A stretch of DNA of 64,000 bases, taken from NCBI GenBank assembly GCA_003611875.1, contig RAYY01000005.1, forward strand, positions 1 to 64,000, read 5' to 3'. Positions 1 through 13,690 of the stretch are shown here, one piece after another. The DNA is from a bacterium D16-56. GTDB taxonomy: Bacteria; Bacillota; Clostridia; Lachnospirales; Lachnospiraceae. Position 1 is the stretch's first letter. Each line of letters begins with the position of its first letter. The notes under the pieces were generated by a model. The model made no database searches. It had not been told where the DNA came from and saw only the letters and a program-made list of their open reading frames with translations. Made by a program: the position numbers and the translations under genes.

Positions 1-38
1 TCTTCACTCAAAGTAATTTTAGTAATATTTTTAGACAT
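1..38 (-). CDS. Start of an unidentified gene, running off the left edge
   Basis: An ATG at 38 reads MSKNITKITLSE to the edge of the window without a stop. A purine-rich AAAGGAA sits about 14 bases upstream, and a good sigma-A promoter (74-102) points at it. Only 12 residues are visible, so no function can be given. It would be the next gene downstream of the glycan locus, with its own promoter. Confidence 0.45.
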   Translation of the reverse strand, partial: MSKNITKITLSE

Positions 39-73
39 AACGGGAAAGATTCCTTTCTTGTGATTCTTCCCTA

Positions 74-102
74 ATTATACCATATTTCTTAACTGTTCAC
101 AA
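74..102 (-). promoter_or_regulatory. Sigma-A-type promoter for the gene leaving the left edge
   Basis: On the minus strand, TTGTGA (97-102) and TATAAT (74-79) are separated by exactly 17 bases. The -10 box is perfect and the -35 matches four of six consensus bases. It lies just beyond the stop of the decayed methyltransferase and about 35 bases before the ATG at 38. Confidence 0.65.
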
Positions 103-103
103 C

Positions 104-624
104 TTAATTTACTATATAGTAGTCTATAATTTCCAGAAACAAACTTCCTCCCTTTTTCAATGATCTTCGCAACCATTGTACCATTTCAGCCTCTGCCGAA
201 TCATATAAAGGAGATATCAGCTGAAAAACAATATCTACCATTTATAATACAATCAAATTCATTCTCTTTCCTATCCTCTAAAAAATTACAATTTATATTT
301 TTTACATTTTTGCTTAATAGTATTTCTGAGAATTTTTGAGCCAAATCACATCTATTTTTACTGACTTCATAATTTAATCCACTTTTTAAAATTCCTTTTC
401 TTTCAAGACAGTATAATAGTTTACCGTTCCCTCCTCCTATTTCACAAACATTTAACAACCCCCCCCCGAAAATTTGCATATATCTCTTTTTCAATAAATT
501 CTGCATTATCTTTGGCAGTTTCTAATTTAAGCATGCAGTATCTATTCAATTCTTCTTCAGATAAAATATGGGCCTGTAAATATTCCACATTATCATAACT
601 ATGTAAATTATCCCTATTATCCAT
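104..624 (-). pseudogene. SAM-dependent methyltransferase, frame-disrupted (poly-G tract plus a second frameshift)
   Basis: The gene starts at ATG 624, overlapping the end of the aminotransferase gene by 8 bases. The first frame reads about 50 residues into a run of nine G (459-467) and then stops after VVKCL. With one G fewer it would continue into LLNVCEIGGGNGKLLYCL, which carries the class I methyltransferase motif I (EIGGGNG). A second frame break near 245, at an AAA, separates the part ending EFDCII from a third frame reading VDIVFQLISPLYDS and ending LKKGGSLFLEIIDYYIVN at the TAA at 104-106. The three pieces join into one plausible methyltransferase of about 173 residues, short for the family. 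The poly-G tract alone would suggest phase variation, but the second lesion points to decay. Its substrate was probably the glycan made by this locus; that is inference from position. Confidence 0.6.
459..467 (-). repeat. Nine-base poly-G tract inside the methyltransferase gene
   Basis: The plus strand has nine consecutive C. On the coding strand this is C followed by nine G. Eight G would join the N-terminal frame to the frame carrying motif I, while nine G give an early stop. Long poly-G runs slip readily during replication and are a known basis of phase variation. Confidence 0.8.
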
Positions 625-2020
625 TACAGGATTTCTCCTCTACAATTTCTTCCATAGATTCAATCAGCACATCCATGGCTTCCTTTAGAGCTTCGTCTGA
701 AATGGTCAGTGGCGGTCCTACTTTAATGGTTCCTGTCATTGTTCTGATTGACATTACACCTTTTTCAAACGCCCTCTCAATGATTCTGTCAACCAACTCC
801 ACATCCAGTTCCTTTGTTCCTGGTTTCACAACAACCGCTGCAAATGCCATTCCCATTCCATGAATGGTCTTCACTCTATCTGGGAATTTCTCCTTTAGTT
901 CATTAAATTTGTTTAACAGAATTTCCTCTTTTCTCTTGGACTCCTCTACAAGATGATGTTCCTCCAAATATTTCAAATTGGCCAGCGCGGAAGCGCACGG
1001 CAAAGGACTTCCCCCATGAGTGCTGTTTAAAGAACCATCTACGTCTAAAATCTCAGCAGAACTGAGAACAGCAGATAAAGGCAAAGCACCACTGATCGCT
1101 TTTCCGCAACAGATAATATCAACGTCAACCCCATAATATTCATAACCAAACAGTTTTCCTGTCCTGCCAAACCCTGCCTGAACCTCATCCGAAACTAGCA
1201 GCGCACCTTTTTCCGTAAGAAATTCCCTTAACGCCTTAATATATCCAATGGGATAAAACAATGCCGCCCATCCCTGGTAAGGTTCAAAAATAGCGCCGGC
1301 GATTGTATCCAAATCCACACCAGATGCCTCTAGTTCTTTGATATCTCTCTCAAACATCTTTCTTCCTTTATCTTCATCATAAATTTGATCCATATCCTCA
1401 AACGGATCCGTTGGGCAAGGCAAATGATAGATACAAGGGTCAAGATTTCCAATCCACTTCCATGAACTTGGCTTCCCCGCCATAGTCTGTGCTCCAAGAG
1501 TCTTTCCATGAAAGGCTCCATGAAACGCGATCATTCCTAATTTTTTCTTATTCTGTTTAATTCCATGTAATCTGCATAATTTCAAAGCGCACTCGGTAGT
1601 CTCCGCTCCAGTAGTAAGCAAAAACACCTTGTCCATACCCTCTGGAGCCATTTTGGCCAACTGTTCTGTAAGGAGAGAACGCTCTTCTAAAAAATAATAA
1701 TAGCTGTTTAACATAGGCTTTTGGATCATTTTTTCCAATGCCTCTACCATCTCTGGATTTCCATGCCCTGTATTGGTCACAAAAATTCCTGATGACAAAT
1801 CAATCCACTTGTTTCCCCATTTGTCGTATACATGAAAATCTGTAGCATGGTCCCATACTGCATAAAGCTGGTGATTCATGGACCAAGGCTCATTTTTTAA
1901 GGAACGTTCTATAATCTCCATGCTCTCTGGCACCGGAATTTTTGTACAAATCTCTCTGTTTTCTGTATGAATTAATTTTACTTTCTTTGGTGTCCTGCGA
2001 AATAAATACTCATTTTCCAT
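617..2020 (-). CDS. Class III PLP-dependent aminotransferase
   Basis: A 467-residue fold-type I aminotransferase of the class III family (4-aminobutyrate, ornithine and taurine aminotransferase relatives). Visible hallmarks are the cofactor loop TTGAETTECALKL (about 136-148), the PLP-ring aspartate in SDEVQAGFGRTGK (D278) and the Schiff-base lysine in CCGKAISG (K307). The length is usual for the family. ATG 2020 is preceded by AGGAAGG about 11 bases upstream. It follows the CMP-sugar synthetase gene by about 20 bases and overlaps the methyltransferase gene. In this setting it most likely transfers an amino group to a sugar precursor or to a small molecule used for decoration. The sequence does not fix the substrate, and a catabolic omega-amino-acid transaminase remains possible. 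Confidence 0.9.
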   Translation of the reverse strand: MENEYLFRRTPKKVKLIHTENREICTKIPVPESMEIIERSLKNEPWSMNHQLYAVWDHATDFHVYDKWGNKWIDLSSGIFVTNTGHGNPEMVEALEKMIQKPMLNSYYYFLEERSLLTEQLAKMAPEGMDKVFLLTTGAETTECALKLCRLHGIKQNKKKLGMIAFHGAFHGKTLGAQTMAGKPSSWKWIGNLDPCIYHLPCPTDPFEDMDQIYDEDKGRKMFERDIKELEASGVDLDTIAGAIFEPYQGWAALFYPIGYIKALREFLTEKGALLVSDEVQAGFGRTGKLFGYEYYGVDVDIICCGKAISGALPLSAVLSSAEILDVDGSLNSTHGGSPLPCASALANLKYLEEHHLVEESKRKEEILLNKFNELKEKFPDRVKTIHGMGMAFAAVVVKPGTKELDVELVDRIIERAFEKGVMSIRTMTGTIKVGPPLTISDEALKEAMDVLIESMEEIVEEKSCNG

Positions 2021-2041
2021 ATATTAAACACCTTCCTCTCA

Positions 2042-2815
2042 CTAAAAATTCTGCCTCAAATATTCATAAAGCTTTGACCCGCTTTTCTCTATTTGATACC
2101 TGATGTAATCCAAATCCTCAACCGTATCAACCTCTGTGCAGTCAGGTGATACAAATGCCAGCATTTTATCTCCATGTAATTTTTGATTCTGGATCACATA
2201 ACTGCTTTTTATTACATCCACATATCCATCGGGAATGTACACGTCAGGGAAATTTTGTCTGGCTGTGTTAGCTGTATCATTATCCAAATCCTTATGCATA
2301 CTCCTGTAAAATCCCTCACTGCTTTTTAAAAACCACTTATAAGGCGATTCGGAAGCCTTATGTCCTGAACGGAGAGAACAACATTCCTGCCGTTCTCTGC
2401 AATATGCAATAGCCCTGTCAACGATTTCTACCTCCCGCAAAGGCGTGGTTACTCTCAGATGAACAAGATACTCTGGTATAGATCTTTCCTTTTCATATAG
2501 GTATTGAATCGCATGTTCTACAAACTCAATATCTCCAGACAGATCAGAAGCAAACTCCTTTGGTCTCAAAAATGGAACCTCTGCACCAAAATGCAATGCA
2601 ATCTGAGCAATTTCTTCCGAATCTGTTGAAACAACTACACGATGAATCCATTTTGACAGTCTTCCTGCCGCAATGGAATACGCAATAAGGGGATACCCTT
2701 TTACCATCTGAATGTTTTTCTTTGGAACTCCTTTTGAGCCACCACGGGCAGGAATCAGGGCCAAAACCTGTTTTTCATCAATTTTTGTTAAATATTCTTG
2801 TCTCCGTTCTATCAT
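2042..2815 (-). CDS. CMP-N-acylneuraminate (CMP-ketosugar) cytidylyltransferase, NeuA-like
   Basis: A 257-residue nucleotidyltransferase of the NeuA/KdsB type. The CTP-binding signature PARGGSKGVPKKN is near residues 19-31, followed by STDSEEIA and FLRPKEFASD, all typical of acylneuraminate cytidylyltransferases. It should couple CTP to a 2-keto-3-deoxy sugar acid and release pyrophosphate in the cytoplasm. AGGTG lies 6 bases before ATG 2815, and the stop of the isomerase gene lies 6 bases further on, so the genes are co-transcribed. Its neighbours (NeuB-like synthase, KdsC-like phosphatase) support a nonulosonate-type pathway. Which acid is activated cannot be told from sequence. Confidence 0.88.
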   Translation of the reverse strand: MIERRQEYLTKIDEKQVLALIPARGGSKGVPKKNIQMVKGYPLIAYSIAAGRLSKWIHRVVVSTDSEEIAQIALHFGAEVPFLRPKEFASDLSGDIEFVEHAIQYLYEKERSIPEYLVHLRVTTPLREVEIVDRAIAYCRERQECCSLRSGHKASESPYKWFLKSSEGFYRSMHKDLDNDTANTARQNFPDVYIPDGYVDVIKSSYVIQNQKLHGDKMLAFVSPDCTEVDTVEDLDYIRYQIEKSGSKLYEYLRQNF

Positions 2816-2823
2816 ATGTACAC

Positions 2824-3672
2824 CTAAACGTTATATTTCTCTATATACTCGCATACAAATTTCATCTGGGCAGAGATATTGTCTTCTTCCTTCCCTTCAT
2901 CGCCCCGGGCTGCCTGGAGTATGAAATTATGGGAATATCCAATTTCACTCAGACCTTTAAACAACTGCTCAAAATCTGCGCTTCCGGTTCCCAACGGAAC
3001 CGTTGTCCCTTGATAGACACGATCCTTGATATGGATATTGAAAATATGATCTCTCAAAGTAGTCACTTCTTCATACAAGTCATATCCTATCCCTGAGCTG
3101 TTTCCACTATCATAATTAGCTCCTACCCTTGGATTACAGAACCCTTCTATATATTCCAGAAAATCTTTAGGTTTCAAATCGGTCTCCAGCCCAAACCGAA
3201 TGGATGTATCCTCTCGGTCAACAATCCCCAGCAGCCATTCCTGAAATGCTAACTTTTCCTGATTATTCTTTAAAGAAGAAGCATCAACCAGAGGAATTTC
3301 GATCAGTCCGATCTCTAATTCCTTCATGGCCAAAAGAACCTTTTCAAGTATTTCTGTGTTCTCTTTTTTTATTAAAGACTGCTCTTTCAAATCTGACTTA
3401 TAAAAGGGTCTGCGCATAAAATAGTCAAAACAGACAACATTCACCTGTATCCCGGTCTTTTTCTTTAATTCTCTAATCGTTTCAATTCCCTCTTTTGTCC
3501 ATAATGGATTCTGGGTATACTTATCATAATCAAAAATAAATTCAATTTCCTCCAGTCCGATCTTTTGGGCTGAAAAAAACTCATTTTCCCAATTATCAAA
3601 GGGAAAGAACTGTATTCCTCTCCCTTTAGGCTGAGTCAGCCGTCCCTGCATAATTCCTATCTGATGTTTCAA
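2824..3672 (-). CDS. Xylose-isomerase-like TIM-barrel sugar isomerase/epimerase
   Basis: A 282-residue protein of the AP endonuclease 2 / xylose isomerase-like TIM barrel family. Family features are the opening GIMQGRLTQP, the strand-end acidic residues in GLEEIEFIFD and FGLETDLKP, and the metal-site-like NIHIKDR near residue 218. The start is a TTG at 3672 with AAGGA six bases upstream; there is no better ATG. The protein probably interconverts sugars or sugar phosphates feeding the NeuB-like condensation. It lies between the neuB-like and neuA-like genes with gaps of about 20 and 8 bases, so it belongs to the same operon. The actual reaction is unknown. Confidence 0.8.
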   Translation of the reverse strand: MKHQIGIMQGRLTQPKGRGIQFFPFDNWENEFFSAQKIGLEEIEFIFDYDKYTQNPLWTKEGIETIRELKKKTGIQVNVVCFDYFMRRPFYKSDLKEQSLIKKENTEILEKVLLAMKELEIGLIEIPLVDASSLKNNQEKLAFQEWLLGIVDREDTSIRFGLETDLKPKDFLEYIEGFCNPRVGANYDSGNSSGIGYDLYEEVTTLRDHIFNIHIKDRVYQGTTVPLGTGSADFEQLFKGLSEIGYSHNFILQAARGDEGKEEDNISAQMKFVCEYIEKYNV

Positions 3673-3692
3673 TTTTTTCCTTCTTTCTGCAA

Positions 3693-4526
3693 TTAGCCCC
3701 GCAATTTCTTTCGCACAGCAGCCTCAGCCTCTGTCAACATCTTCTCCCCATCACCTAGTGCCTTTTCGACAGTACGGATGTCCTTTATCAGTCTCTGTAA
3801 GTCATCAACCTCTAAGGAAGCTGCCTGGTCAGAACCATACATGGTTCTATCCAAGGTGATATGGCGCTCAATTGATGTAGCCCCCAGCGCAACTGCAGAA
3901 GTTGATACAATACGTCCTGTCTCATGTCCGCTGTACCCTACTTTCACACCATATCTCTCCCTCAGAATCGGAATCATCTTCAGATTGGCATCCTCATTTT
4001 TCATCGGATAGGTGCTATTACAGTGCAATATTTCATAAGGGCAATCATTTCGCTTAAAGACCTCCACTGCCGCATCAATCTCCTCATAGGTGCTCATGCC
4101 CGTAGCAATAAACGTATATTTTTTCTCCTCTGCAACCGTTTGAAGCAATTCCATATTTGTAAGCATGGCTGAAGCGATTTTATTATACTTAAGATCATAC
4201 TGACGTAAAAAAAGCTGAGCCTCTATATCCCATGCTGAGGCATACCATTCAATCTGATATTCTTTGCAAAGAGCATTAATTTTGTCATATTCCTCTTTTC
4301 CAAATTCCAGCCCTTCCTTTTGAGCTCTTTGAGTAGTTCCCCAAGGAGACTCTCTGTAACTATCTAAATATTCCTTTGTATATACCTTATCCACAGTCCT
4401 TTTCTGAAACTTTACAGCATCACATCCACATAAATGAGCCCACTCAATCAACTGCTTTGCAATCTCCAGACTGCCATTATGATTAATTCCTATCTCGGCT
4501 GTTACAAATACATGTGTATTACTCAT
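3693..4526 (-). CDS. NeuB-family ketosugar acid synthase lacking the SAF domain
   Basis: A 277-residue NeuB-family enzyme that should condense phosphoenolpyruvate with an aldose or amino-sugar. Landmarks are EIGINHNGSLEIAK near the N-terminus, DAVKFQKRT, IATGMSTYEE, LHCNSTYPM, GYSGHETG and ERHITLDRTMYGSDQAAS, covering the complete TIM barrel. Classical NeuB, LegI and PseI proteins are about 330-350 residues because of a C-terminal antifreeze-like (SAF) domain. This one stops after the barrel (TEAEAAVRKKLRG) at a genuine stop codon. Its last bases do not overlap the isomerase gene, but its ATG overlaps the stop of the HAD-SIS gene by 4 bases. The substrate is uncertain; this SAF-less form may act on a sugar other than N-acetylmannosamine (inference). 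Confidence 0.87.
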   Translation of the reverse strand: MSNTHVFVTAEIGINHNGSLEIAKQLIEWAHLCGCDAVKFQKRTVDKVYTKEYLDSYRESPWGTTQRAQKEGLEFGKEEYDKINALCKEYQIEWYASAWDIEAQLFLRQYDLKYNKIASAMLTNMELLQTVAEEKKYTFIATGMSTYEEIDAAVEVFKRNDCPYEILHCNSTYPMKNEDANLKMIPILRERYGVKVGYSGHETGRIVSTSAVALGATSIERHITLDRTMYGSDQAASLEVDDLQRLIKDIRTVEKALGDGEKMLTEAEAAVRKKLRG

Positions 4527-5611
4527 TTTAATCCTCCCATAGTTAATTTTTCATTTATTATCTCACATATCATGTGGATCATCATTTGTTGTCCTTCCTG
4601 CACTCGCATAGTGTCGTCAGAAGGAATCTCTATCATAAAATCTGCATAATTCCTGATTGATATATACAATGGATCTTTCCCTGTTATTAATACAGTTAAA
4701 AGTTCTTTTTCTCTAGCTTGTTTAAAAGCATTAAAAATACTCGCTGCGTTCTTCTTGACAGTAATGCCAAAGATTACATCTCCTGCTCTACTCTTTCTCT
4801 CTAACTGTCTAGAAAAAACCAAAGAACAATCATTATCTGCTGCTGGCAATGTCATATAGTAACAACTCGCAGGTAAAACTCCTGCTGAATCATAACTTTT
4901 TTTTTCACAAAATATTTCAGATAATTGTGCTGCAAAATATCGGGCCAGCAAATCCCCAGTCCCATTTCCGCAAAAAAATAACCGTCCATTCTTCTGAAAA
5001 ACGCTTACCAACCTCTGGCACACAATTTCTACAGCATGTAACAACGGTTCTTCCAGCATCATCTGTTCAGCCATATTATTGTGTGCTGTCATACTTCTTT
5101 GAATAATCTCCATGACATCTGTCTGAACTGTTAAAGTCTTCTCATTCATCCTATTTCTCTGATGAAGTCTTGTATACAACTCTGCCAGACAGCCCTCCCC
5201 GCCACAAACAGTCAAAATCATGTCAGCGACTTCCCTCACCTCATAGATCGCATCATAAGGACAAACAGACAATCCTGCATACATTAAAGCCTCTATATCA
5301 TATTTCCCATCACCTATGTAACAAACCTCTTTTGAATCAATCTGGTAATCCCTGCAGAATTCTTCAAGAACCTTTTTTTTATTTTTTTTCCCAAGAGAGC
5401 TGTAATCTAAATGTGCAGATATTGATCTCGAAAAGGCTGTATCCTCGCCGGAAATACATCCTACAATCATCCCTTCATTCTGAAACGATTTAATTGCATC
5501 CAAATCTTTGAAAGCCACTGATTTCATTTCCTGAGACAAGCCATCTGTATATTTTTTCCCGTCTGTAATCACTCCATCTATATCAAAAATCAATACATGT
5601 ATGTTATTCAT
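4523..5611 (-). CDS. Fusion of KdsC-like HAD phosphatase and GmhA-like SIS sugar-phosphate isomerase
   Basis: A 362-residue two-domain protein. Residues 1-155 form a KdsC/NeuA-tail type HAD phosphatase: FDIDGVITDG (catalytic D10, D12), SFQNEGMIVGCISGED and YIGDGKYDIEAL. Residues from about 170 on form a SIS domain like GmhA phosphoheptose isomerase, with GRLFFCGNGTGD and a C-terminal EGQQMMIHMICEII helix. The GNGGSAADAQH loop of GmhA is altered here. The fusion suggests isomerisation of a sugar phosphate and removal of phosphate from the condensation product in one polypeptide. It overlaps the neuB-like gene by 4 bases (ATGA), which implies translational coupling. The family-level call is firm; the substrate is inferred from neighbours. 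Confidence 0.82.
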   Translation of the reverse strand: MNNIHVLIFDIDGVITDGKKYTDGLSQEMKSVAFKDLDAIKSFQNEGMIVGCISGEDTAFSRSISAHLDYSSLGKKNKKKVLEEFCRDYQIDSKEVCYIGDGKYDIEALMYAGLSVCPYDAIYEVREVADMILTVCGGEGCLAELYTRLHQRNRMNEKTLTVQTDVMEIIQRSMTAHNNMAEQMMLEEPLLHAVEIVCQRLVSVFQKNGRLFFCGNGTGDLLARYFAAQLSEIFCEKKSYDSAGVLPASCYYMTLPAADNDCSLVFSRQLERKSRAGDVIFGITVKKNAASIFNAFKQAREKELLTVLITGKDPLYISIRNYADFMIEIPSDDTMRVQEGQQMMIHMICEIINEKLTMGGLK

Positions 5612-5634
5612 GAAATTATGCCTTTCTGTTCTGT

Positions 5635-6948
5635 CTAAAACAGAGAATCAAAATCTACCCGTTCAAAAATTCCTAATTTTCCACCTCGTGTTACATTATA
5701 GATTTTGATTTCGTGTGAATCTGTATATTGTTTTGCAGATTCATAGGCCAACGTAACTTGTTTTACATATCCTATTCCTTTTTCCTCTGGTTTGTATGAT
5801 TCATAAAAATGTGTGTAACTTATATTTTTTTTTGAATTTCCATACGAAAAATCCACCCCTAATAGATAAATTTCCCGAAAACCCATATAAACAGCTAACT
5901 GCATACAAGTATAAGTAACCGTTGTTCCTATATAACTTCGTATCGAAAAATCATCTGAAAATTTAGGCAATCTATCAGAACAATATTCATAATGCTGATG
6001 ATAACGAAAAACATTATTTGCATGAGGCATGTTCCAAAAGCTTTCCGAAGTATCACTCAAAAATTTTTCTTTTACAGATAAAGTATCTAACAAATCCTTG
6101 TATTCATCAAACCCTCTATAATCCGACATCACATAATAATCTGGTCTCCATTCTGTTTGATCAAATGCATGATAAATACTATTCATACTAAAACATATTT
6201 CATTATGATCTTTTAACATATTAAGATCACTCACCGTTAAGCTTGGCCCTGTTGCCACAATAAAACATCGTTTTCCATTATGCAGGTTACGGAATTTTGC
6301 TATTGCCGGATTATGATAACTTGTTATCCTGTCAGAACAATCATAAATATCCGTTAGCTGATAGTTCGCAAATACATCTGCTTTTTTCAATTCATCATAA
6401 TTATGCAAACACACACAAACTTCATCCAAATCACCGATTGATCCTTCATTGTTTATCAAATTCAAATTGCTGTATTGCTGCTTTAACTTGTCAACAAATT
6501 CTCCAGAAATATTATCTTGTATTATAATATATGGGTGGTATCCATATTTCTTATAAATCCAATCATCCAGAATAATGCTATACAAATTCAACCCATATAA
6601 AGCATAATTCTTCCTGTCTTTTAAATACGATATTACATATTCCTTTAAATCTTCTCTAATACACGGCTCTTTAAACTCTCCCGGAAGATCACAATGAACA
6701 AAATAATTGATGATGTTTTTACTCTGCAAAATCTTGATACTCTCAATTTCATACAAATGTGCAATTAAGATAAATTCGTGAGAATGATTTTGCAAATATT
6801 CCTCAACACTTATAACCTTTTTTTCATAGTATTTCTTATTGGCTAACTGTATTTTAGAATCAACAAAAACAATTTCCCAATCATCATCCAAATGGTTTAA
6901 CACCCGGCGCCCAATGTCCCCTGCACCCCATATGTACAATTTTTTCAT
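5635..6948 (-). CDS. DUF115 (Maf-like) protein, probable glycosyltransferase
   Basis: A 437-residue protein. Residues 1-90 form a nucleotide-binding-like fold opening KKLYIWGAGDIGRRV. The C-terminal half is a DUF115/MptE-like domain with IVATGPSLTVSDL near residue 232, YYVMSDYRGFDEY, YIGTTVTYTCMQLAVYMG and IYLLGVDFSYG. DUF115 proteins include the Maf family that attaches nonulosonic acids to flagellin in other bacteria. Next to CMP-ketosugar genes, transfer of that sugar is the likeliest role; this is inference. The ATG at 6948 overlaps the stop of the phosphatase gene as ATGA and has AAGGG upstream. A longer in-frame start at 7002 exists but lies inside the previous gene. Confidence 0.75.
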   Translation of the reverse strand: MKKLYIWGAGDIGRRVLNHLDDDWEIVFVDSKIQLANKKYYEKKVISVEEYLQNHSHEFILIAHLYEIESIKILQSKNIINYFVHCDLPGEFKEPCIREDLKEYVISYLKDRKNYALYGLNLYSIILDDWIYKKYGYHPYIIIQDNISGEFVDKLKQQYSNLNLINNEGSIGDLDEVCVCLHNYDELKKADVFANYQLTDIYDCSDRITSYHNPAIAKFRNLHNGKRCFIVATGPSLTVSDLNMLKDHNEICFSMNSIYHAFDQTEWRPDYYVMSDYRGFDEYKDLLDTLSVKEKFLSDTSESFWNMPHANNVFRYHQHYEYCSDRLPKFSDDFSIRSYIGTTVTYTCMQLAVYMGFREIYLLGVDFSYGNSKKNISYTHFYESYKPEEKGIGYVKQVTLAYESAKQYTDSHEIKIYNVTRGGKLGIFERVDFDSLF

Positions 6949-7796
6949 AAGATTACCCTTTTCATTGACATAAAATGTTCGATGGCTTCTGCCACCCCAC
7001 ACGCATCGTTTGTCCCTGTCACATAAGCTGCTGCATCGATAACCTCGGGCATTGCATTTCCCATAGCCACTCCTGTTCCCGCCGTCTTAATAATATCCAA
7101 ATCATTAATCGAATCACCAATCGCTATCGTATCATCCAATGAGATCTGCAATTGCCTGCAAAGTATTTTTAATGCTTTTCCTTTGTCCACTCCGCTTTTG
7201 GTAAGTTCCAGATTTCCCCAGCCTCCACTTACTAAACGAATCATTGGATTATTTTCCAGATATTCCTTTACTTCTTTGCGATCAACCAATTCTCCTGATT
7301 GATCCGGATAGAAATTCATGGTAGTTTTCTGCATGGTAAGCTGATTTTTCTCTATATATTCAATCGGATCATCAAGCCATACCCGATTGTTTAAAATATA
7401 AACCTTCCGCGCCTTTGGTACATTTAACTTATTTACAATTGCTTTTGTATTACTTGGACAATATCCCTTACCCTGAATGAACATGTCAATATGCATATCT
7501 TTTTCTAACAGAAATGTAAGAATGGGAACAATTGTATTTGTATCAATACTTTCTTCATAAATACATTTTCCTGTCTTGTACTCATAGATTGCACTTCCAT
7601 TTGCAGTAATTGCATAGGAAATATTCAGTCCTCTCAAATCATCGTGGGGCATCAATCCATAGGGACTGCCTGTTGATATAATCACTTCAATTCCCTTTTG
7701 AGTAGCTGACTGTATGGCTCTACGGTTCCTATCTGGCAGCCTGCGCTCTGTGTCCAGTAAAGTTCCGTCCAGATCTAATGATATCAGTTTAATCAA
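6945..7796 (-). CDS. Cof-type HAD hydrolase (sugar phosphatase family)
   Basis: A 283-residue HAD-superfamily phosphatase with a C2 cap of the Cof/YidA type. The catalytic motif is SLDLDGTLLDTERRLP at the N-terminus; motif II is IISTGSP; motifs III and IV are GVDKGKAL and AIGDSINDLDII, then GVAMGNA. I place the start at TTG 7796, because AGGAGG lies nine bases before it and it gives the canonical opening MIKLISLDLDGT. The upstream ATG at 7817 lacks a site. The enzyme would dephosphorylate a small sugar or alcohol phosphate. Between the TagD-like gene and the DUF115 gene it probably serves precursor supply. Specificity is unknown. Confidence 0.85.
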   Translation of the reverse strand: MIKLISLDLDGTLLDTERRLPDRNRRAIQSATQKGIEVIISTGSPYGLMPHDDLRGLNISYAITANGSAIYEYKTGKCIYEESIDTNTIVPILTFLLEKDMHIDMFIQGKGYCPSNTKAIVNKLNVPKARKVYILNNRVWLDDPIEYIEKNQLTMQKTTMNFYPDQSGELVDRKEVKEYLENNPMIRLVSGGWGNLELTKSGVDKGKALKILCRQLQISLDDTIAIGDSINDLDIIKTAGTGVAMGNAMPEVIDAAAYVTGTNDACGVAEAIEHFMSMKRVIL

Positions 7797-7829
7797 ATTG
7801 TCGTATCCTCCTGCCATTCCATTTTTCTA

Positions 7830-8252
7830 TCACCCCTCCCCAGCCAAAATTCTCTGACGAATCTTTGTTGTGGATACGCTTTGTGTATAGGGAAGGTAGA
7901 TCACATCCACCCCAACTTCATTTAATTCTTTTTCAAACTGGTTCCACCACTTTGTCCCTTTATAGTCATCTCCGATAAAAATCACATCAAAGTGATATAA
8001 TTCCCACAGCTTCTTTTTATCCCGGAAACGTGTTATCTCAGCCTGATCTACATCCTTGATTGCAGCCACAATTCTGCGCCTGTCTTCTTCTCCAATAATG
8101 GGGGCAGGTTTGCGCTCCTTCACCACCTCGTCCCCATGTACTGCTACAATCAGGTATTCACAGTATTGTTTTGCCGCCTCAATAATATTAAGGTGTCCTA
8201 TATGAAACAAGTCATAGGTTCCGTCTGTATAACCAATTTTATATTTTTTCAT
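7830..8252 (-). CDS. TagD-like cytidylyltransferase (glycerol-3-phosphate cytidylyltransferase family)
   Basis: A 140-residue protein of the TagD/CTP:phosphocholine-cytidylyltransferase fold. It carries HxGH in GTYDLFHIGHLN near residues 12-23 and the closing signature SVSTTKIRQRI. It should join CTP to an alcohol phosphate such as glycerol 3-phosphate, giving the CDP-activated donor used by LicD- or TagB/F-type transferases. ATG 8252 has GGAGGA at optimal distance; the ATG at 8276 lacks one. It lies downstream of licD, with a copy of a diverged intergenic repeat in the gap. The alcohol activated is not determinable; glycerol or choline phosphate are candidates. Confidence 0.85.
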   Translation of the reverse strand: MKKYKIGYTDGTYDLFHIGHLNIIEAAKQYCEYLIVAVHGDEVVKERKPAPIIGEEDRRRIVAAIKDVDQAEITRFRDKKKLWELYHFDVIFIGDDYKGTKWWNQFEKELNEVGVDVIYLPYTQSVSTTKIRQRILAGEG

Positions 8253-8275
8253 CGTAGTTTCCTCCACTCTATACA

Positions 8276-8322
8276 CAATTCACAGAACAAAATGGTATAG
8301 ATGCAATGTTTTTCTTTTACCC
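8276..8322 (-). repeat. Truncated copy (C) of a conserved intergenic element
   Basis: On the minus strand, GGGTAAAAGAAAAACATT followed by ATCTATACCATTTTGT matches the first part of two longer copies at 13459-13547 and 60927-61007. The stop codon of licD lies inside it. The similarity fades after roughly 40 bases. Confidence 0.55.
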
Positions 8323-9147
8323 TTCATCCTTTTCCAATTTTAATTCTGATATAGGATGCACTTTTCTCTCTGATTCTGGAGGAAGTTCCATGTAATTTCC
8401 GAATTTATGTTTAAGGTATCCTTCATAGTCTTTTGCGCCCGTCAATGTAATAGTTCCAAAACGGTATCTTCCCTGACTTAAAAACCACTTCCGATAAAAT
8501 CCATATGTATTTTTGGGTGTTGGAAATGTCAATATTCTGACCATCTCTGTTTTATGACGGGCATTTATTTTAATTAACAATTCATACCAGACAATCAGTG
8601 CCTTTCTTGGCATAAGCCGCATAATCCCATATAGCCATCTAATCATTTTGTTTTTTTCAGTACGGCACCCGACCTCTGACCATAAAAATTTGCGCAGCAA
8701 AAAGCAGCTAAAAAAATGTATTTTTCTTAACATTCTGTTGTCAGGAACATTATCCAGCGGAAACAAATCAATAAAAATACCTTGCTCATATGGCATAAAT
8801 TCCTGTCCAAGCCGCACAAATTTTGTATTCTTCTTCCTTAACTTAGCATATCCCCAACGATATCCTTCTGTATCCCGTATTTCCTGAAAATAATACTTCT
8901 CTGTATCCAACTCTGTCTGGCAGGCTTTCCTGAATTTTTCATATTCTGTTCGTAAAAAACCGAGATCCGCATCATCATCCCAGGGTATATAACCGCCATG
9001 CCGAATTGCCCCTAGCATCGTCCCGCCTACCATATTGTAATGGATATTGCATTTTCTGCATATTCTGTCTACTTCCTGTAAAAGTTCTGTTTCTACCTTC
9101 TGGAGCATATGCAGTTCATCCTGTGTCATATAATAACGTTCTGCCAT
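8317..9147 (-). CDS. LicD-family phosphotransferase
   Basis: A 276-residue LicD-family protein. The family core YNMVGGTMLGAIRHGG then YIPWDDDADLG lies near residues 37-64 (conserved acidic WDDDAD), followed by FIDLFPLDNVP. LicD proteins move phosphocholine or similar CDP-linked alcohol phosphates onto surface polysaccharide or teichoic acid. I use ATG 9147, which has AGAAGGA eight bases upstream inside the 3' end of the transporter gene; the ATG at 9165 has none. The TagD-like cytidylyltransferase gene is next in the operon, so an activating enzyme and its transferase are adjacent. The transferred group is unknown. Confidence 0.9.
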   Translation of the reverse strand: MAERYYMTQDELHMLQKVETELLQEVDRICRKCNIHYNMVGGTMLGAIRHGGYIPWDDDADLGFLRTEYEKFRKACQTELDTEKYYFQEIRDTEGYRWGYAKLRKKNTKFVRLGQEFMPYEQGIFIDLFPLDNVPDNRMLRKIHFFSCFLLRKFLWSEVGCRTEKNKMIRWLYGIMRLMPRKALIVWYELLIKINARHKTEMVRILTFPTPKNTYGFYRKWFLSQGRYRFGTITLTGAKDYEGYLKHKFGNYMELPPESERKVHPISELKLEKDEG

Positions 9148-9151
9148 TTCT

Positions 9152-10138
9152 TTATTCCTTCTCACTAAATGAAAAATCCAGATAATCTTCTATATTCACT
9201 TCTGTACTAATCAGCTTTTGTTCGTAAAGAAACTTTGCCGTATTTTTCAATTCACTCTGATCCTTTGCTGTCAGCCCAACCGGGAAATTACTGTTCTCCC
9301 AAGTCTGAATCAACAGTTCCTCCGGCAGCCCTGTGACTGAAGAATATTCTTTGGCATATCCGGGAAAATCACTTTTCAATTCTTCTACAGCCCTCTGATA
9401 TTGTTCCATAAATATTTTTACAATCTCCGGATTCTGAGCAGTATATTCCTGATTTGCCACAATCACATTTTCTCCGGCATACACTCCGGTTCCGTCAGCC
9501 AGCAGTACCCCTGCTCCATCTGCACATATTTTCAGCATGGTAGGATTCCACATGGCTACAGCATCTACCTGTCCTGTCACTAATGCAGTTTCCAGTTCGG
9601 AAACGCCTAAATTAATCAGCTCCACATCCTCCATAACCATTCCCTTATCAGTCAGGATTGCATTTAAAAAATCCTGTGCAATGGAACCAATTACAATCCC
9701 TATTTTCTTTCCCTTTAATCCTGTTACCTCTGTGATATCTGATTCGTTCTGAACCACAATCCCTAATGTCCGCTCCCCATTATAGGCAATTCCAATAATA
9801 TCCCGCTTTTGTCCTGCTGCAATTCCACTGATAGCAGGAACATTTCCCATGACGCCCAAATCCTGCGCTCCTACTGCAAAGGCTTCGTTTTCTGGTGGAC
9901 CAGATTCAAATTCCGTATAGGTCACTTCAATATCATATCCTGCTTTTGCAAGAGCTTCCTCCAGCCACCCCTTTTCCTCCATAATATATAGCGGGGTATA
10001 TCCAAGGACCAATTGTTTTGCAATATTAAGATGATCTGTAGAATTTAAAGAAGCTTCTTCTTTTACACTGGTTTTACCACATCCTGCCACAGTCAATGCC
10101 GTCATAAAAGATAACATAATACAAAATGTTTTTTTCAT
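9152..10138 (-). CDS. ABC transporter substrate-binding lipoprotein (SsuA/TauA/NMT1-like)
   Basis: A 328-residue extracytoplasmic solute-binding protein. The N-terminus is a lipoprotein signal peptide with the lipobox LTVAGC (lipidated Cys20). The rest resembles the nitrate/sulfonate/taurine/thiamine-precursor family, with YTPLYIMEEKGWLEEAL near residue 45, LGVMGNVPAISGIAAGQ and GKKIGIVIGSIAQDFL. It is the binding component for the ATPase and permease encoded upstream, all on one transcript. The ligand cannot be read from sequence. Placement just before licD and a cytidylyltransferase suggests it imports a decoration precursor (for example an amino-alcohol, sulfonate or phosphonate); that is inference. 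Confidence 0.88.
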   Translation of the reverse strand: MKKTFCIMLSFMTALTVAGCGKTSVKEEASLNSTDHLNIAKQLVLGYTPLYIMEEKGWLEEALAKAGYDIEVTYTEFESGPPENEAFAVGAQDLGVMGNVPAISGIAAGQKRDIIGIAYNGERTLGIVVQNESDITEVTGLKGKKIGIVIGSIAQDFLNAILTDKGMVMEDVELINLGVSELETALVTGQVDAVAMWNPTMLKICADGAGVLLADGTGVYAGENVIVANQEYTAQNPEIVKIFMEQYQRAVEELKSDFPGYAKEYSSVTGLPEELLIQTWENSNFPVGLTAKDQSELKNTAKFLYEQKLISTEVNIEDYLDFSFSEKE

Positions 10139-10151
10139 AATCTACATTCTC

Positions 10152-10946
10152 CTATTCTTCTTTTTCATCTTTGCTTTCAAAATACTTATATATATTTCTT
10201 CGTATTTTCTGAAATACTTCGGAGCTTCTGTCTCGTATTTCTGGCAAATGGATCTCTACAATATCCAAAATCTTAGCTGGTCTGTTGGCCAGAACAATCA
10301 CCCTGTCTGCCAGGTACACCGCTTCCTCTATATCATGAGTAACTAACAGCATGGTGCTTTTTTGCTTTTTTCTGATTGTCAATAGTTCTTTTTGTAATTG
10401 GATTCTTGTCAATGCATCCAAAGCACCAAATGGCTCGTCCAGGAACAAGATTTCAGGTTCATTTACCAAAGCTCTGGCAATATTGACTCTTTGAGCCATA
10501 CCCCCAGATAATTCTCTCGGATATGCATTCTCAAAGCCTTTCAACCCTACCAGTTCCAGTACTTCGCTTATCTTCCTTCTCTTTGCCTCCTGGTCTTTGT
10601 CGTTCATAACAAATCCTATGTTTTTTTCAACTGTAAACCAAGGAAACAGCCTGTGCTCCTGATATACAAATCCCCTTCTTTTATCAGTCTTTTTTACTAA
10701 TTCGTGATCAATGATAACCTGACCTTCATAATCTGGATCCAGACCTGACATTAAGCGCAGCAAAGTGCTCTTTCCGCATCCGCTTCCACCTACTATACAG
10801 ACAAACTCTCCTCTGCTTATCTCAAAATTAATGCTGTCAAGCACCTGCAAATCTTTTTGTCTTTTCCGTTTGTATTTTTTTCGTAAGTCCCGTACTGAAA
10901 TATACTTGTTTTGCTGTTCCATATCCCTGCTTTCTAAAGATTCCAT
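10152..10946 (-). CDS. ABC transporter ATP-binding protein (SsuB/TauB-like)
   Basis: A 264-residue ABC ATPase. The Walker A motif GGSGCGKST is near residue 54, the Q-loop YQEHRLFPW near 95, the signature LSGGMAQR near 146, Walker B ILFLDEP near 166 and the switch histidine in LLVTHD. It energises the permease (10934-11701) and works with the lipoprotein (9152-10138). AAAGG lies eight bases before ATG 10946, and the start overlaps the permease stop by 13 bases. The family (nitrate, sulfonate, taurine importers) is clear, the substrate is not. Confidence 0.93.
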   Translation of the reverse strand: MESLESRDMEQQNKYISVRDLRKKYKRKRQKDLQVLDSINFEISRGEFVCIVGGSGCGKSTLLRLMSGLDPDYEGQVIIDHELVKKTDKRRGFVYQEHRLFPWFTVEKNIGFVMNDKDQEAKRRKISEVLELVGLKGFENAYPRELSGGMAQRVNIARALVNEPEILFLDEPFGALDALTRIQLQKELLTIRKKQKSTMLLVTHDIEEAVYLADRVIVLANRPAKILDIVEIHLPEIRDRSSEVFQKIRRNIYKYFESKDEKEE

Positions 10947-11701
10947 GCCAATACCTTTTTCTCCAGCAATTTCAAGATCTCATCCATAACTTTCCCCACA
11001 ATACCAATCGTAATCATTCCTATAATGACCACATCCATCTGTCCAAAGTTTCTTGCATTAGAGATCATATATCCAATCCCGCTGCTTGCCGCCACTAATT
11101 CTGCTGCTACTACACAGGACCAACTGGTTCCTAAAGCCACCCTTAATCCTGTAAATATACTTGGCATAGCTGCCGGTATTATCAGACCTAAAATATATTT
11201 AACTTTTGGTGTTTCCACCGCGTCTGCTACCTCTAACAGCTTTGGATCTATATAGCGTATTCCATCAATCACATTCAGCAAAACCACAAAAAATCCTCCT
11301 AAAAATATGAGAAAGACCTTTGAGGATTCCCCAATGCCCATCCACAAAATCACTAAAGGGATCCATGCAATCGGAGGTATTGGTTTTAATATCTGAATCA
11401 ATATTTTTGTCATTCGATAAATCGATTCCGACAAACCGATAATAACTCCACAGCAAATTCCTCCTGCAACTGCAAAGAAATATCCCTTCAACACACGTCC
11501 AACACTGATTCCAATCTCTGTCAGCAAAGAACCATCTCCAAATTTTTTCATAAATGTACTTCCAATCGTAAGAGGAGATGGCAGCAAAATTCTGCTGACG
11601 CTGCCAGTTTCTGCTGCAATATACCAAACTGCAACAATGACTATGATTAAAAACATACTTTCAAATGAACAGACCAAACTTCCCTTCATTTTATCTCTCA
11701 T
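10934..11701 (-). CDS. ABC transporter permease (SsuC/TauC-like)
   Basis: A 255-residue inner-membrane permease with about six hydrophobic helices. The EAA loop region is VADAVETPKVKYILGLIIPAAMPSIFTG, seen as EVADAVETPKV and LIIPAAMPSIFTGLRVALG near residues 155-190. It belongs to the binding-protein-dependent transport family next to SsuC and TauC. It is the first gene of the transporter trio in transcription order and follows the phase-variable acetyltransferase gene by about 26 bases. AAAGG about ten bases before ATG 11701 serves as ribosome site. Confidence 0.92.
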   Translation of the reverse strand: MRDKMKGSLVCSFESMFLIIVIVAVWYIAAETGSVSRILLPSPLTIGSTFMKKFGDGSLLTEIGISVGRVLKGYFFAVAGGICCGVIIGLSESIYRMTKILIQILKPIPPIAWIPLVILWMGIGESSKVFLIFLGGFFVVLLNVIDGIRYIDPKLLEVADAVETPKVKYILGLIIPAAMPSIFTGLRVALGTSWSCVVAAELVAASSGIGYMISNARNFGQMDVVIIGMITIGIVGKVMDEILKLLEKKVLAWNL

Positions 11702-11727
11702 TTAATGTTGCCTTTCATTATTAGTAC

Positions 11728-12652
11728 CTATTTCTCATCCTGATTATTTTCATGTCTCCTGATAAACTCATCAATATTTTCAAAAAAATCCTTATAATAT
11801 TTTCTGATTTTTTCATCTGTCCAATTCCACCATGCAATCTGATTCAATGCTTGAATTTGATACGGCTCAAATCGATATTTAATGATCCTTGCCGGTATTC
11901 CTGCTACAACAGCATAATCAGGAACATTTTTTGTGATAACTGCTCCTGCTGCTGCAATTACCCCATTACCAATATCAGAACCATTTGTAATAATTACATT
12001 TTTTCCTAGCCACACATCATTGCCAATCCTTATCCTTTTTAATTTTGGCGCCTTCCCCTGAGGCTGTACTCCTGGGAAATACCACGGTGAATCTTGACAG
12101 TCATCATATTTTTCCTGATAAATTTCATTACAATCTTCATCATGATATAAAAATGGATGTGTTGATATGTATTGCAATGCATGATTTTGCACAACATCCG
12201 CGCCAGCCGCAAAACTGCAAAATGCTCCCACGCTTTCCACTAACCAATGCTTGCACAATGGCCCGTAGCTGTACTTACCACATTGCGTTGCATATTTATC
12301 TTCTTCTGGAAAAATATCCAAAATATTTTGGTCACCGAAAATGTCAACAGCCATCTGTCGGACTTCTGTATAAACATCTGGATTTGCATTGGTTAATAAA
12401 ATCGTATATTTAGAAACATCCTTATTATGAAAGTATCCCAAACTTTTAATATTGGAATTATATTTGGAAAGCTTATTATCTACAATGTATCGCTCCAAAA
12501 TTCCAAAGCTTTCATTTAATATTTTTTTAGTAAGCATTCCATATTCCCCAAAAGGATAAATGATAAATTGATTATCTCTTTCCCCCCCCCCGAAGCTGAA
12601 TTAATAGATATTCTTCAATAGTATTTCGGATTTTTTGGTAATCGGTTACCAT
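11728..12652 (-). pseudogene. CatB-type hexapeptide acetyltransferase, switched out of frame by a poly-G tract (probably phase-variable)
   Basis: A gene in two frames. ATG 12652 has AAAGGAA upstream and reads MVTDYQKIRNTIEEYLLIQL into ten G (12582-12591), then stops at TAA as sequenced. With nine G the frame continues RGGERDNQFIIYPFGEYG straight into MLTKKILNESFGILERYIVD, giving about 307 residues. The large downstream part (from 12537) has an N-terminal domain seen in other clostridial sugar-modification proteins. It ends in a left-handed beta-helix acetyltransferase domain: RIGNDVWLGKNVIITNGSDIG, AAAGAVITKNVPDYAVVAG, IPARIIKYRF. It would acetylate a sugar of the local glycan. An internal start at 12537 preceded by GGGGA could give a shortened product even in this state, so the switch may be partial. 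No other lesion is visible, which favours phase variation over decay. Confidence 0.8.
12582..12591 (-). repeat. Ten-base poly-G tract near the 5' end of the acetyltransferase gene
   Basis: There are ten C on the plus strand, so C followed by ten G on the coding strand, 21 codons after the start at 12652. Ten G lead to a stop five codons later; nine G restore the full reading frame. It is the longest homopolymer in the window and resembles known slipped-strand contingency tracts. Confidence 0.85.
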
Positions 12653-12705
12653 CTCTATTTCCTTTCAATAATTCCTTTTTTATGATGTTTTATTCAGCAT
12701 TTCAA

Positions 12706-13437
12706 TCAAAATACTCCTAAATACACCTCTGGTTCATTCAAAAAAACATCCGTAATCCCTTGCTTCTCTAATGCTGTCAAATCCAGTAATGTCCCTGTCG
12801 GTTTCTCTGGATATAGGTGCCCGGTAAACCACGCTCGTACCGGATATCCTTTCACTCGGTCTGCCATCAAATCCATCCCTTGCCAACTCGGATGCAAAGC
12901 ATTTGCCCCACATCCCTTTAGCTTAAACAAGCAATCAGAAACCTTGGTATCCAAAACTCCAGTCTCAACATCTGGTTCCAACTTTTGTATTTTTTCCAAA
13001 GATAAGGTATAAAAAGAAGAATATATCACGCTTTCCTGCAATCCCCTTTTATGTACTAACTCTACAATCTTCTCCTCAATTCCAGGATAATGATAAACGC
13101 TTGTCTTTAACTCTATATTCAGTTTCATACCTGCTTTTAATTTATCTTCAGTCAAATCCAATACCTCATTCATTGTAGGGATACATTGGCTTGAACTGTC
13201 TCCTGCATAAATATGAAGTCGTTTCAACTCCAAAAGTGTGTAATCTTTTACAAATCCAATTCCTTCTGTAGTCCGGTCCACACGTTCATCATGAATCACC
13301 ACAAGCTGCCCATCTCTTGTTAATTGAATATCCAATTCAATTCCCACAAGCCCTTTCAATCCTGCTGCTTGTTCAAATGCCAACAAAGTATTTTCTGGGT
13401 ATCTCTGACTGCATCCCCTATGTGCCCAAATCTTCAT
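12706..13437 (-). CDS. Glycerophosphodiester phosphodiesterase (GDPD)
   Basis: A 243-residue GDPD-family phosphodiesterase. The catalytic opening is IWAHRGCSQRYPENT, then GIELDIQLTRDGQLVVIHDERVDRTT near residues 30-60 (metal-binding E-x-D and catalytic H), then LNIELKT. It hydrolyses glycerophosphodiesters to an alcohol plus glycerol 3-phosphate. There is no signal peptide, so it acts in the cytoplasm. ATG 13437 has GGAGG six bases away; the start at 13458 does not. It is the first gene of the glycan train and could supply glycerol 3-phosphate or free choline-like alcohols to the TagD/LicD pair, which is inference. Confidence 0.92.
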   Translation of the reverse strand: MKIWAHRGCSQRYPENTLLAFEQAAGLKGLVGIELDIQLTRDGQLVVIHDERVDRTTEGIGFVKDYTLLELKRLHIYAGDSSSQCIPTMNEVLDLTEDKLKAGMKLNIELKTSVYHYPGIEEKIVELVHKRGLQESVIYSSFYTLSLEKIQKLEPDVETGVLDTKVSDCLFKLKGCGANALHPSWQGMDLMADRVKGYPVRAWFTGHLYPEKPTGTLLDLTALEKQGITDVFLNEPEVYLGVF

Positions 13438-13458
13438 GATTTCCTCCACGCTGTGCAT

Positions 13459-13547
13459 GCTTCACAGCACATCGTATTTTGTGAAATATTGCATATCCCG
13501 CTTTATCAGGTATCAAATGGTATAGGTGAAACATTTCTCTTTCACCC
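13459..13547 (-). repeat. Conserved intergenic element, copy A, upstream of the GDPD gene
   Basis: An approximately 85-base minus-strand element starting at GGGTGAAAGAGAAATGTTTC and ending near CTGTGAAGC. It aligns along its length with 60927-61007. It contains a GTGAAA/TTTCAC hairpin and a TTCACA/TGTGAA stem; in the other copy the second stem is ACAGA/TCTGT, so pairing is kept while bases differ. It ends just before the GDPD ribosome site and could be a structured RNA leader or a small mobile palindrome. Confidence 0.6.
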
Positions 13548-13602
13548 TTCTTTCTCCTGATTTTTTGATATTGCCTTCCAAAATCTATTTATTTAATTCA
13601 AA

Positions 13603-13653
13603 CAAAAAAATCTGATGCATCTGTATGACAATCTCATACTTTACATCAGATTT
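13603..13653 (-). terminator. Intrinsic terminator after the broken Rpn gene
   Basis: AAATCTGATG (13608-13617) pairs with CATCAGATTT (13644-13653), with an inner GTATGA/TCATAC pairing. On the minus strand the hairpin is followed by seven T. The right arm is also part of a 30-base inverted repeat with 14968-14997. Confidence 0.8.
13624..13653 (+). repeat. Left 30-base imperfect inverted repeat flanking the Rpn gene
   Basis: It matches the reverse complement of 14968-14997 at 26 of 30 positions. The shared core is TCATACTTTACAT. The two copies bracket the broken nuclease gene and face each other. Confidence 0.6.
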
Positions 13654-13690
13654 CTCTTGGTAAACCCTATTTTCTTTTTTCTAATATATG

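Follow-up and report, generated by a model that had tools for sequence, protein, structure and literature searches.

An unusual putative CMP-ulosonate gene cluster pairing a SAF-less NeuB with a class III aminotransferase in bacterium D16-56

Introduction

Ulosonic acids influence how hosts and phages perceive bacteria, and the prediction of their products depends on the sialic, legionaminic and pseudaminic routes. Here we describe a gene cluster in a 64,000-nucleotide stretch of bacterium D16-56 (Lachnospiraceae), hereafter the window, which covers positions 1-64000 of contig RAYY01000005.1 (C157) and whose base 1 is the contig end. Family models place its NeuB near sialic acid synthases; no precursor enzymes of the three routes are recognisable next to the gene, and the set recurs in contigs classed as viral.

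Several described systems come close. The 2-keto-3-deoxynononic acid (KDN) pathway of Bacteroides thetaiotaomicron, which we take to join a NeuB-family synthase, a KdsC-type phosphatase and a cytidine monophosphate (CMP) synthetase, includes to our knowledge no aminotransferase, no TIM-barrel enzyme of the kind found here and no short-chain dehydrogenase/reductase (SDR). In the passages compared, the flagellin modification operon sfmABCDE of Shewanella oneidensis encodes a 290-aa NeuB (SfmA), an SDR with weak homology to PtmA (SfmC) and a methyltransferase (SfmD) (PMC3765264). For Leptospira interrogans, the passages compared list a CMP-synthetase (YP_002102), an aminotransferase (YP_002103) and a NeuB (YP_002104) under consecutive accessions, and describe in the last an extra C-terminal domain that is homologous to endonucleases and was called a phosphatase (PMC3438082).

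We propose, with a probability of about 0.5, that the product of the window locus is a CMP-activated amino 3-deoxy-2-ulosonic acid destined for a surface glycan or flagellin, that its SIS domain is a relic, and that its NeuA-aminotransferase part was acquired. Related clusters come in SIS and aminotransferase forms, and together with the recently decayed domain they offer a natural comparison for assigning a step to each part.

Results

A tightly packed operon around a NeuB without SAF domain

Six minus-strand genes are packed tightly at 617-7002 and are read in the order DUF115/MptE-like, KdsC-SIS, NeuB, TIM, NeuA and AT3:

617..2020, minus strand: AT3, class III pyridoxal phosphate (PLP) aminotransferase, 467 aa (Pfam Aminotran_3, 277 bits)
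2042..2815, minus strand: NeuA/PseF family CMP-ulosonate synthetase, 257 aa (Pfam CTP_transf_3, 73.7 bits)
2824..3672, minus strand: TIM, xylose-isomerase-like TIM barrel of the MQGRL subfamily, 282 aa (AP_endonuc_2, 71 bits)
3693..4526, minus strand: NeuB-family phosphoenolpyruvate (PEP)-condensing synthase without SAF, 277 aa (Pfam NeuB, 242.8 bits)
4523..5611, minus strand: KdsC-type HAD phosphatase (about residues 1-150) and degenerate SIS domain (about residues 171-362) in one fused protein (Pfam HAD and SIS_2)
5635..7002, minus strand: DUF115/MptE-like protein, a candidate glycosyltransferase (PF01973, 72.8 bits)

The DUF115 gene probably starts at M19, at about 6948. The intergenic gaps measure 21 nt (AT3-NeuA), 8 nt (NeuA-TIM), 20 nt (TIM-NeuB) and 23 nt (KdsC-SIS-DUF115), and NeuB and KdsC-SIS overlap by 4 nt. 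With all genes on the minus strand and matching Pfam families, the tight operon claimed in a preliminary description of this DNA was borne out, and its SAF-less NeuB and Maf-like DUF115 protein (by the PF01973 domain) likewise held. The unusual CMP-ulosonate pathway with an aminotransferase that it had put forward is supported as well.

A Pfam scan of the 277-aa NeuB found no SAF domain, the part that completes the N-acyl hexosamine pocket. In an alignment with NeuB of N. meningitidis, the positions of E25, K53, Q55, K129, S132, Y186, S213, H215, E234, H236 and D247, which we take to be catalytic or active-site residues, are kept. The ratio of nonsynonymous to synonymous change (omega; NG86 method, one genome pair, window versus bacterium 1XD21-70) is 0.026 for this gene. 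A SAF-less NeuB is in itself already known, both from the 290-aa chain of PDB 6ncs and from the SfmA of Shewanella. The window's genome has one clear NeuB, the second match reaching only 35 bits and lying among genes read as aromatic amino-acid genes.

The SIS half of the fusion has lost its isomerase motifs

The KdsC half of the fusion keeps the HAD motifs DxD and GDGxYD and scores 85.8 bits against the KDN-9-phosphatase model (cut-off 180). The SIS half is homologous to GmhA (PRK13938, 96.8 bits, cut-off 320; best PDB match 5i01), and reaches 26.0 bits against SIS_2, where the Pfam cut-off is 27 and an intact viral protein (locus L176) scores 79.3 bits. The motif GNGGSA(A/S)DAxHxxxE and the loop (S/T)xSGxS are kept in GmhA structures and in five bacterial loci (G307, G107, G151, G327 and G844). 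In the window and 1XD21-70, GGSAADAQHxAxE is replaced by GTGDLLARYFAAQ or GSGNLLAQYFAIQ, and the phosphate loop reads TVKKNA or TVKANQ. We take the His-Glu motif of GmhA to be metal-binding and catalytic, and STSGxS to be its phosphate loop. Moreover, omega is 0.38 for the SIS half and 0.14 for the KdsC half, compared with 0.039-0.134 for 11 other genes.

Given the loss of both motifs and the fast evolution, the SIS half is probably not an active isomerase. The earlier assignment of a GmhA-like isomerase fused to a phosphatase thus stands for ancestry and fails for activity, and we found no support for this domain furnishing a heptose or pentose phosphate, since the required motifs are gone in this lineage. 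A structure of the fusion predicted from five sequences had a mean pLDDT (per-residue confidence) of 74.7 and a pTM (overall fold confidence) of 0.46, with residues 237-264 below pLDDT 50. The predicted fold matches KdsC-type structures: all 50 Foldseek matches listed of 1307 were KdsC/HAD-type entries, so that the comparison speaks to the KdsC half of the fusion.

The operon is cut at the contig end and probably continues on C177

In 1XD21-70, the AT3 gene is followed by genes for a VOC protein, a methyltransferase (MT), SDRb, a C-N hydrolase and a PtmA-like SDRa. The window's genome carries orthologues of these five genes (86-94% identical) in the same order close to the end of contig C177, and both SDRs contain the YxxxK motif. 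The features at the two contig ends are as follows, those of C177 being numbered in its stretch L055 and each having its ortholog in 1XD21-70:

Window 1..616, no strand: contig start; the operon breaks off here (base 1 is the first of contig C157)
L055 10694-11182, minus strand: VOC
L055 9721-10671, minus strand: methyltransferase (MT)
L055 8921-9700, minus strand: SDRb dehydrogenase
L055 8113-8898, minus strand: C-N hydrolase
L055 7280-8152, minus strand: SDRa dehydrogenase

Gene order therefore suggests that the operon probably continues from C157 on C177. Window bases 1-640 gave no significant match to the 19.9-kb stretch of 1XD21-70 (L041; best E 0.13), so an insertion at the junction is likely.

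The cut operon also bears on the standard nonulosonate enzymes, which had been listed as absent. NeuC/LegG, LegB/PseB, LegC/PseC and an N-acetyltransferase are unrecognised in the cluster, of which LegB, PseB, LegC and PseC were not searched genome-wide. No NeuC-type epimerase was found in the genome, whose three Epimerase_2 proteins all fit the wecB model best, two of them above its cut-off. The claimed absence is thus strengthened for this epimerase and weakened in that the list was drawn from a truncated operon. In 1XD21-70, a CapD-type 4,6-dehydratase and an Epimerase_2 protein were read from sequence 2.5-7 kb past the last operon gene, after glycosyltransferases (L041). C177 carries different genes at that place, and we took the two to serve another sugar. 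Beyond the operon, C177 has glycosyltransferase, TupA-type ATP-grasp and class I/II aminotransferase genes; since these resemble surface-polysaccharide genes, flagellin is no more likely to be the target than a surface polysaccharide. The genome has four Flagellin_N matches, all on contigs other than the window's.

AT3, NeuA and TIM keep family-level features

AT3 carries CCGK with K307, presumably the PLP lysine, invariant in the three rows aligned; the protein is 97% identical to that of 1XD21-70 (omega 0.035) and 44% identical to that of G1087, a genome of another class. It has K433 where its best PDB match, a gamma-aminobutyrate (GABA) transaminase, has an arginine that we take to bind the substrate carboxylate, which speaks against a plain GABA-type enzyme. 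A search for AT3 in 341 class genomes gave nine matches, one of which was the window's genome (G000); no NeuB match was found in the wider stretches of six of the eight others. These AT3 relatives outside the pathway are 40-44% identical to the window AT3, and in five of six loci lie beside LacI, Gfo/Idh and transporter genes (Pfam-confirmed for one locus and by eye for the others, the sixth being cut before these genes). Such company fits a keto-sugar substrate.

NeuA scores 126 bits against the PseF model (cut-off 205.7), indicating a CMP-sugar synthetase at family level. In TIM, the E, D and H ligand positions, assigned on our assumption from UlaE-type epimerases, are invariant in 11 sequences, and the fourth is Q in the window and E in G107 and G151. 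With three of four positions kept and Q at the fourth, ketose 3-epimerase chemistry is uncertain.

Related clusters are rare in bacterial genomes

TIM protein matches were found in 5 of 397 family genomes and 2 of 24 genus genomes. At the level of the order, 4 of 392 genomes matched, three of which were already found or the window's own and one of which was weak (G554, 61 bits); a TIM profile at a stricter limit matched 3 of 343 phylum genomes. A NeuB profile matched 28 of 398 phylum genomes at 1e-60, with only G000, G307, G1087, G844 and G1100 above 290 bits and the others at 234 or less. The loci without AT3 (G307, G151, G107, G327 and G844; hereafter SIS-type) encode NeuB, KdsC, SIS, TIM and SDRa, together with ThDP (thiamine diphosphate)-dependent genes in four of five and Gfo/Idh genes in three of five. 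The NeuB of G107 lies at L039:12067-12891 (71% identical).

Outside the genus, AT3-type loci were found in three of the 29 genomes covered from a different class, namely G1087, G1141 and G1142, which share one family. The run in G1141 is KdsC-NeuB-MT-TIM-NeuA-AT3-VOC-SDRb-SDRa; that of G1087 is nearly the same minus KdsC, and that of G1142 is the same up to a contig end inside AT3. G1141 and G1142 carry the set with KdsC and without a SIS match. The preliminary description had proposed looking for the same set elsewhere, and related sets were indeed found in 1XD21-70 (colinear), in genomes of a different class within the phylum and on viral contigs.

Several candidates were rejected. An Azospirillum HAD gene taken by its length for a KdsC-SIS fusion aligned as a NeuA-like part plus KdsC. 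A class III aminotransferase beside NeuB in Methylomagnum was only 27-28% identical to the window-type AT3s and belongs to a different subfamily, and the long NeuB proteins of G023 (706 aa) and G860 (561 aa), considered as NeuB-TIM fusions, gave no TIM match. On the Methylomagnum plasmid (L090:7847-13459), one run contains a split transketolase, that other class III aminotransferase, an SDR that is 51% identical to the Azospirillum SDRa, a NeuB (48%) and KdsC. A DegT-family gene read as RfbH-like lies near NeuB in L037 and L040 (bacterial) and L175 (viral), with the family confirmed for L040 and L175.

NeuB, NeuA, AT3 and VOC travel together in viral contigs

When 539 stretches were scanned with the NeuB alignment, 517 relatives were confirmed, of which the best 80, at 50-65% identity to the window NeuB, were kept. 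Viral status follows the collection's classification, and the limits on marker scores were set by us. Removal of loci with NeuB at least 90% identical reduced the 80 loci to 66, and counts below refer to these unless stated. Some loci have short flanks, where absence is weak evidence.

AT3 was found near NeuB in 15 of 66 loci (21 of 80 before deduplication). VOC accompanied it in 13 of 15 AT3 loci versus 8 of 51 others (p 8e-7), and NeuA in 14 of 15 versus 10 of 51. All four genes, NeuB-NeuA-AT3-VOC, occurred together in 13 of 66 loci (19 of 80). In the window, NeuB, NeuA and AT3 of this module are present, and VOC is on C177, joined only via 1XD21-70 synteny. ThDP-dependent genes were also linked to AT3 (3/15 versus 0/51, p 0.01), and MT weakly so (5/15 versus 5/51, p 0.04).

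An open reading frame with a GPSL motif directly precedes NeuB in 11 of 19 AT3 loci versus 2 of 57 other viral loci, a count in which 4 of the 80 loci with short flanks were dropped and the near copies L127-L130 were counted. In L175 and L126, the two viral loci scanned for it, a match to part of the PF01973 domain (43-44 bits) immediately precedes NeuB. In L123, the top-ranked viral NeuB locus (65%), a GT29 sialyltransferase-family match (50.4 bits, cut-off 23) lies about 0.9 kb before NeuB. Among annotated phage records, the NeuB search gave three matches, the best being 43%. Some viral loci have ThDP-dependent, DegT-family or split transketolase genes beside NeuB.

Trees point to mixed ancestry

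In the trees of NeuB, SDRa and TIM, the window groups with its family's SIS-type loci. A single clade of the bacterial AT3 loci was rejected by the approximately unbiased (AU) test (NeuB p 0.002, SDRa 0.0003, TIM 0.003); the NeuB of G107 was left out of the NeuB tree. NeuA from the window shares 53-56% identity with its counterparts in the G1087, G1141 and G1142 clusters, versus 32% with that of G327, the sole SIS-type NeuA compared. One clade was compatible with the four bacterial and six viral pathway AT3s (AU p 0.44), and the four bacterial ones alone as a clade were rejected (p 0.007), since L157, a viral locus, groups with G1087 and G1141. With one clade rejected for NeuB, TIM and SDRa, the window locus looks like a SIS-type chassis with parts from an aminotransferase-type cluster. 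In the simplest reading, the NeuA-AT3 part was exchanged into that chassis and the SIS domain then decayed, a direction and timing that we infer.

The gene run extends upstream in a low-G+C region

The gene run extends past 7002, upstream of the six genes, with a Cof phosphatase, a nucleotidyltransferase, LicD, an SsuCBA-like transporter, a hexapeptide acyltransferase and, by sequence reading, GDPD:

6945..7817, minus strand: Cof-type HAD phosphatase (family-model matches)
7830..8276, minus strand: cytidylyltransferase-like nucleotidyltransferase (HldE-C/GCT models, both under cut-off)
8317..9165, minus strand: LicD-family phosphotransferase (family-model match)
9152..11701, minus strand: SsuA, SsuB and SsuC-like ABC transporter genes (SsuA_fam, 191.9 bits, for 9152-10138; SsuB/C by sequence reading)
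11728..12537, minus strand: hexapeptide-type acyltransferase (Hexapep 25.5 bits, cut-off 27)

All 14 genes compared, from GDPD to AT3, are colinear in 1XD21-70, with protein identities of 72-97%, so that the block is not a chance association. A sulfonate/taurine-type ABC transporter (9152-11701) is embedded among glycan genes, and its position is kept in 1XD21-70. G+C is 0.35-0.40 in window positions 1-14000 and 0.43-0.54 in 14001-64000; given the lower value in the first 14 kb, the glycan gene run looks like an island.

Discussion

From gene content, motif loss, recurrence and mixed ancestry, which were obtained directly, we infer each reaction, the reaction order and the product as follows. 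NeuB would condense PEP with an aldose, probably phosphorylated, and the KdsC domain would take off the phosphate. TIM, together with the two SDR dehydrogenases encoded on C177, may create a keto group, which AT3 would turn into an amine; VOC, the methyltransferase and the C-N hydrolase would trim the sugar acid. NeuA would then form the CMP sugar, and the DUF115 protein is the candidate for its transfer. The SIS domain may be a decaying relic retained for folding or assembly, in a SIS-type cluster of this bacterial family that would have acquired the NeuA-AT3 part of an aminotransferase-type cluster. More tentatively, and as a possibility that we would not favour, the NeuB-NeuA-AT3-VOC module common to bacteria of two classes and phages might make an undescribed class of CMP-amino-ulosonic acids, with which phages would decorate their own surface or that of the host; within the window's genus, the module would have been grafted onto a SIS-type pathway whose isomerase domain is decaying.

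A number of observations weigh against this amino-ulosonate pathway. The window NeuB has M, A and S at the positions of E134, S154 and N184, so that 3 of 14 compared positions differ. TIM (4 of 15 AT3 loci, p 0.45) and SDRa (5 of 15, p 0.28) showed no association with AT3 in the viral set. The KdsC marker had no match in the G1087 stretches and occurred in none of the 15 AT3 viral loci (1 of 66 overall), which argues that a phosphorylated substrate is not general. Two of the 15 carry SIS, L176 with all three motif patterns and L200 with the phosphate-loop pattern only, so AT3 does not render SIS obsolete. Mutual exclusion of SIS and AT3 had been suggested by the lack of AT3 with intact SIS in 11 bacterial loci and was rejected on these two viral loci (Fisher p 0.22). 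The 11 were the window, 1XD21-70, G1087, G1141 and G1142 (AT3), G307, G107, G151, G327 and G844 (intact SIS) and Azospirillum (neither), and are non-independent, since they include a pair and a trio of closely related loci. The SIS domain also has an omega still below 1, so some function may remain. The link between C157 and C177 depends on synteny with a single genome, 1XD21-70. Finally, the enzymes of the set are known here from sequence, and AT3 could act on a non-sugar substrate.

The remaining explanations differ in what they assign to each part. In one, the SIS part of the fusion works as a GmhA-like isomerase, giving NeuB a heptose or pentose phosphate on the way to a Kdo (3-deoxy-D-manno-octulosonic acid)-like or ten-carbon sugar acid; this view draws on the GmhA homology of the domain and on the intact GmhA motif and STSGxS-type loop of the five SIS-type clusters, for which the idea may hold. 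For the window it is quite unlikely, given the replaced motif and loop in this locus and in 1XD21-70, the fast evolution of the domain, and the G1141 and G1142 sets that have KdsC without SIS. Rather doubtful is an ordinary product, in which NeuB would use mannose 6-phosphate (to KDN) or an N-acetylated hexosamine made elsewhere and AT3 would decorate it or another component. The KdsC half does belong to the KDN-9-phosphatase/Kdo-8-phosphatase family, and G027 has a SAF-less NeuB-KdsC pair beside genes read as mannose-type; however, the KDN-9-phosphatase score falls below its cut-off, the G027 NeuB is only 44% identical and lies across a starred branch from the pathway loci, a NeuC-type epimerase was not found in the genome, and the recurring TIM and SDR genes are not known as part of the KDN route. 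Leptospira interrogans, with its CMP-synthetase, aminotransferase and NeuB, is reported in the passages compared to make N-acetylneuraminic acid, which also favours an ordinary product (PMC3438082).

It is unlikely, too, that AT3 leaves the sugar itself unaminated and instead supplies an amino acid or amine as a side group, to be attached with the help of the C-N hydrolase and acyltransferases. The cluster holds a C-N hydrolase and a hexapeptide acyltransferase, and AT3 scores best against acetylornithine, GABA and related NCBIfam models, although all 25 listed were below cut-off. On the other side, the C-N hydrolase marker was found in 0 of 80 viral loci, of which 21 have AT3, and AT3 kin outside the pathway accompany Gfo/Idh dehydrogenases. 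We retain the amino-ulosonate pathway as the main proposal.

Compared with the described systems, the locus shares parts with each and differs in others. In the passages compared, the Shewanella operon differs in its ThDP-dependent SfmB and its ATP-grasp SfmE, and the words aminotransferase and isomerase are absent from the text (PMC3765264). The extra domain of the Leptospira NeuB, likened here by description only, may be of the same AP_endonuc_2 TIM family as in the window, in which case it differs in being fused to NeuB (PMC3438082). In those passages, neither cluster covers the window gene set. The window phosphatase scores below the model cut-off for the KDN pathway (85.8 vs 180). The 1XD21-70 SDRa, which shares 94% identity with its ortholog in the window's genome, resembles Campylobacter PtmA (119.9 bits, cut-off 350), whereas no equivalents of the Campylobacter LegB, LegC, LegH and LegG were seen in the cluster. 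A plasmid cluster of Azospirillum thermophilum is similar in NeuB (60%), SDRa (52%) and TIM (39%) but has KdsC fused to a NeuA-like domain rather than SIS (L089:12865-13950) and no AT3 match in the stretch; this fusion adjoins the SAF-less NeuB, and a separate set annotated as legionaminic-type lies alongside. In a literature search of titles and abstract openings, with few subscription papers, a set of NeuB, class III aminotransferase, VOC and TIM was not described, and PMC9599517 contains none of five sialic-acid terms. Altogether, the gene set looks like a variant of CMP-ulosonate biosynthesis that is recurrent rather than one-off.

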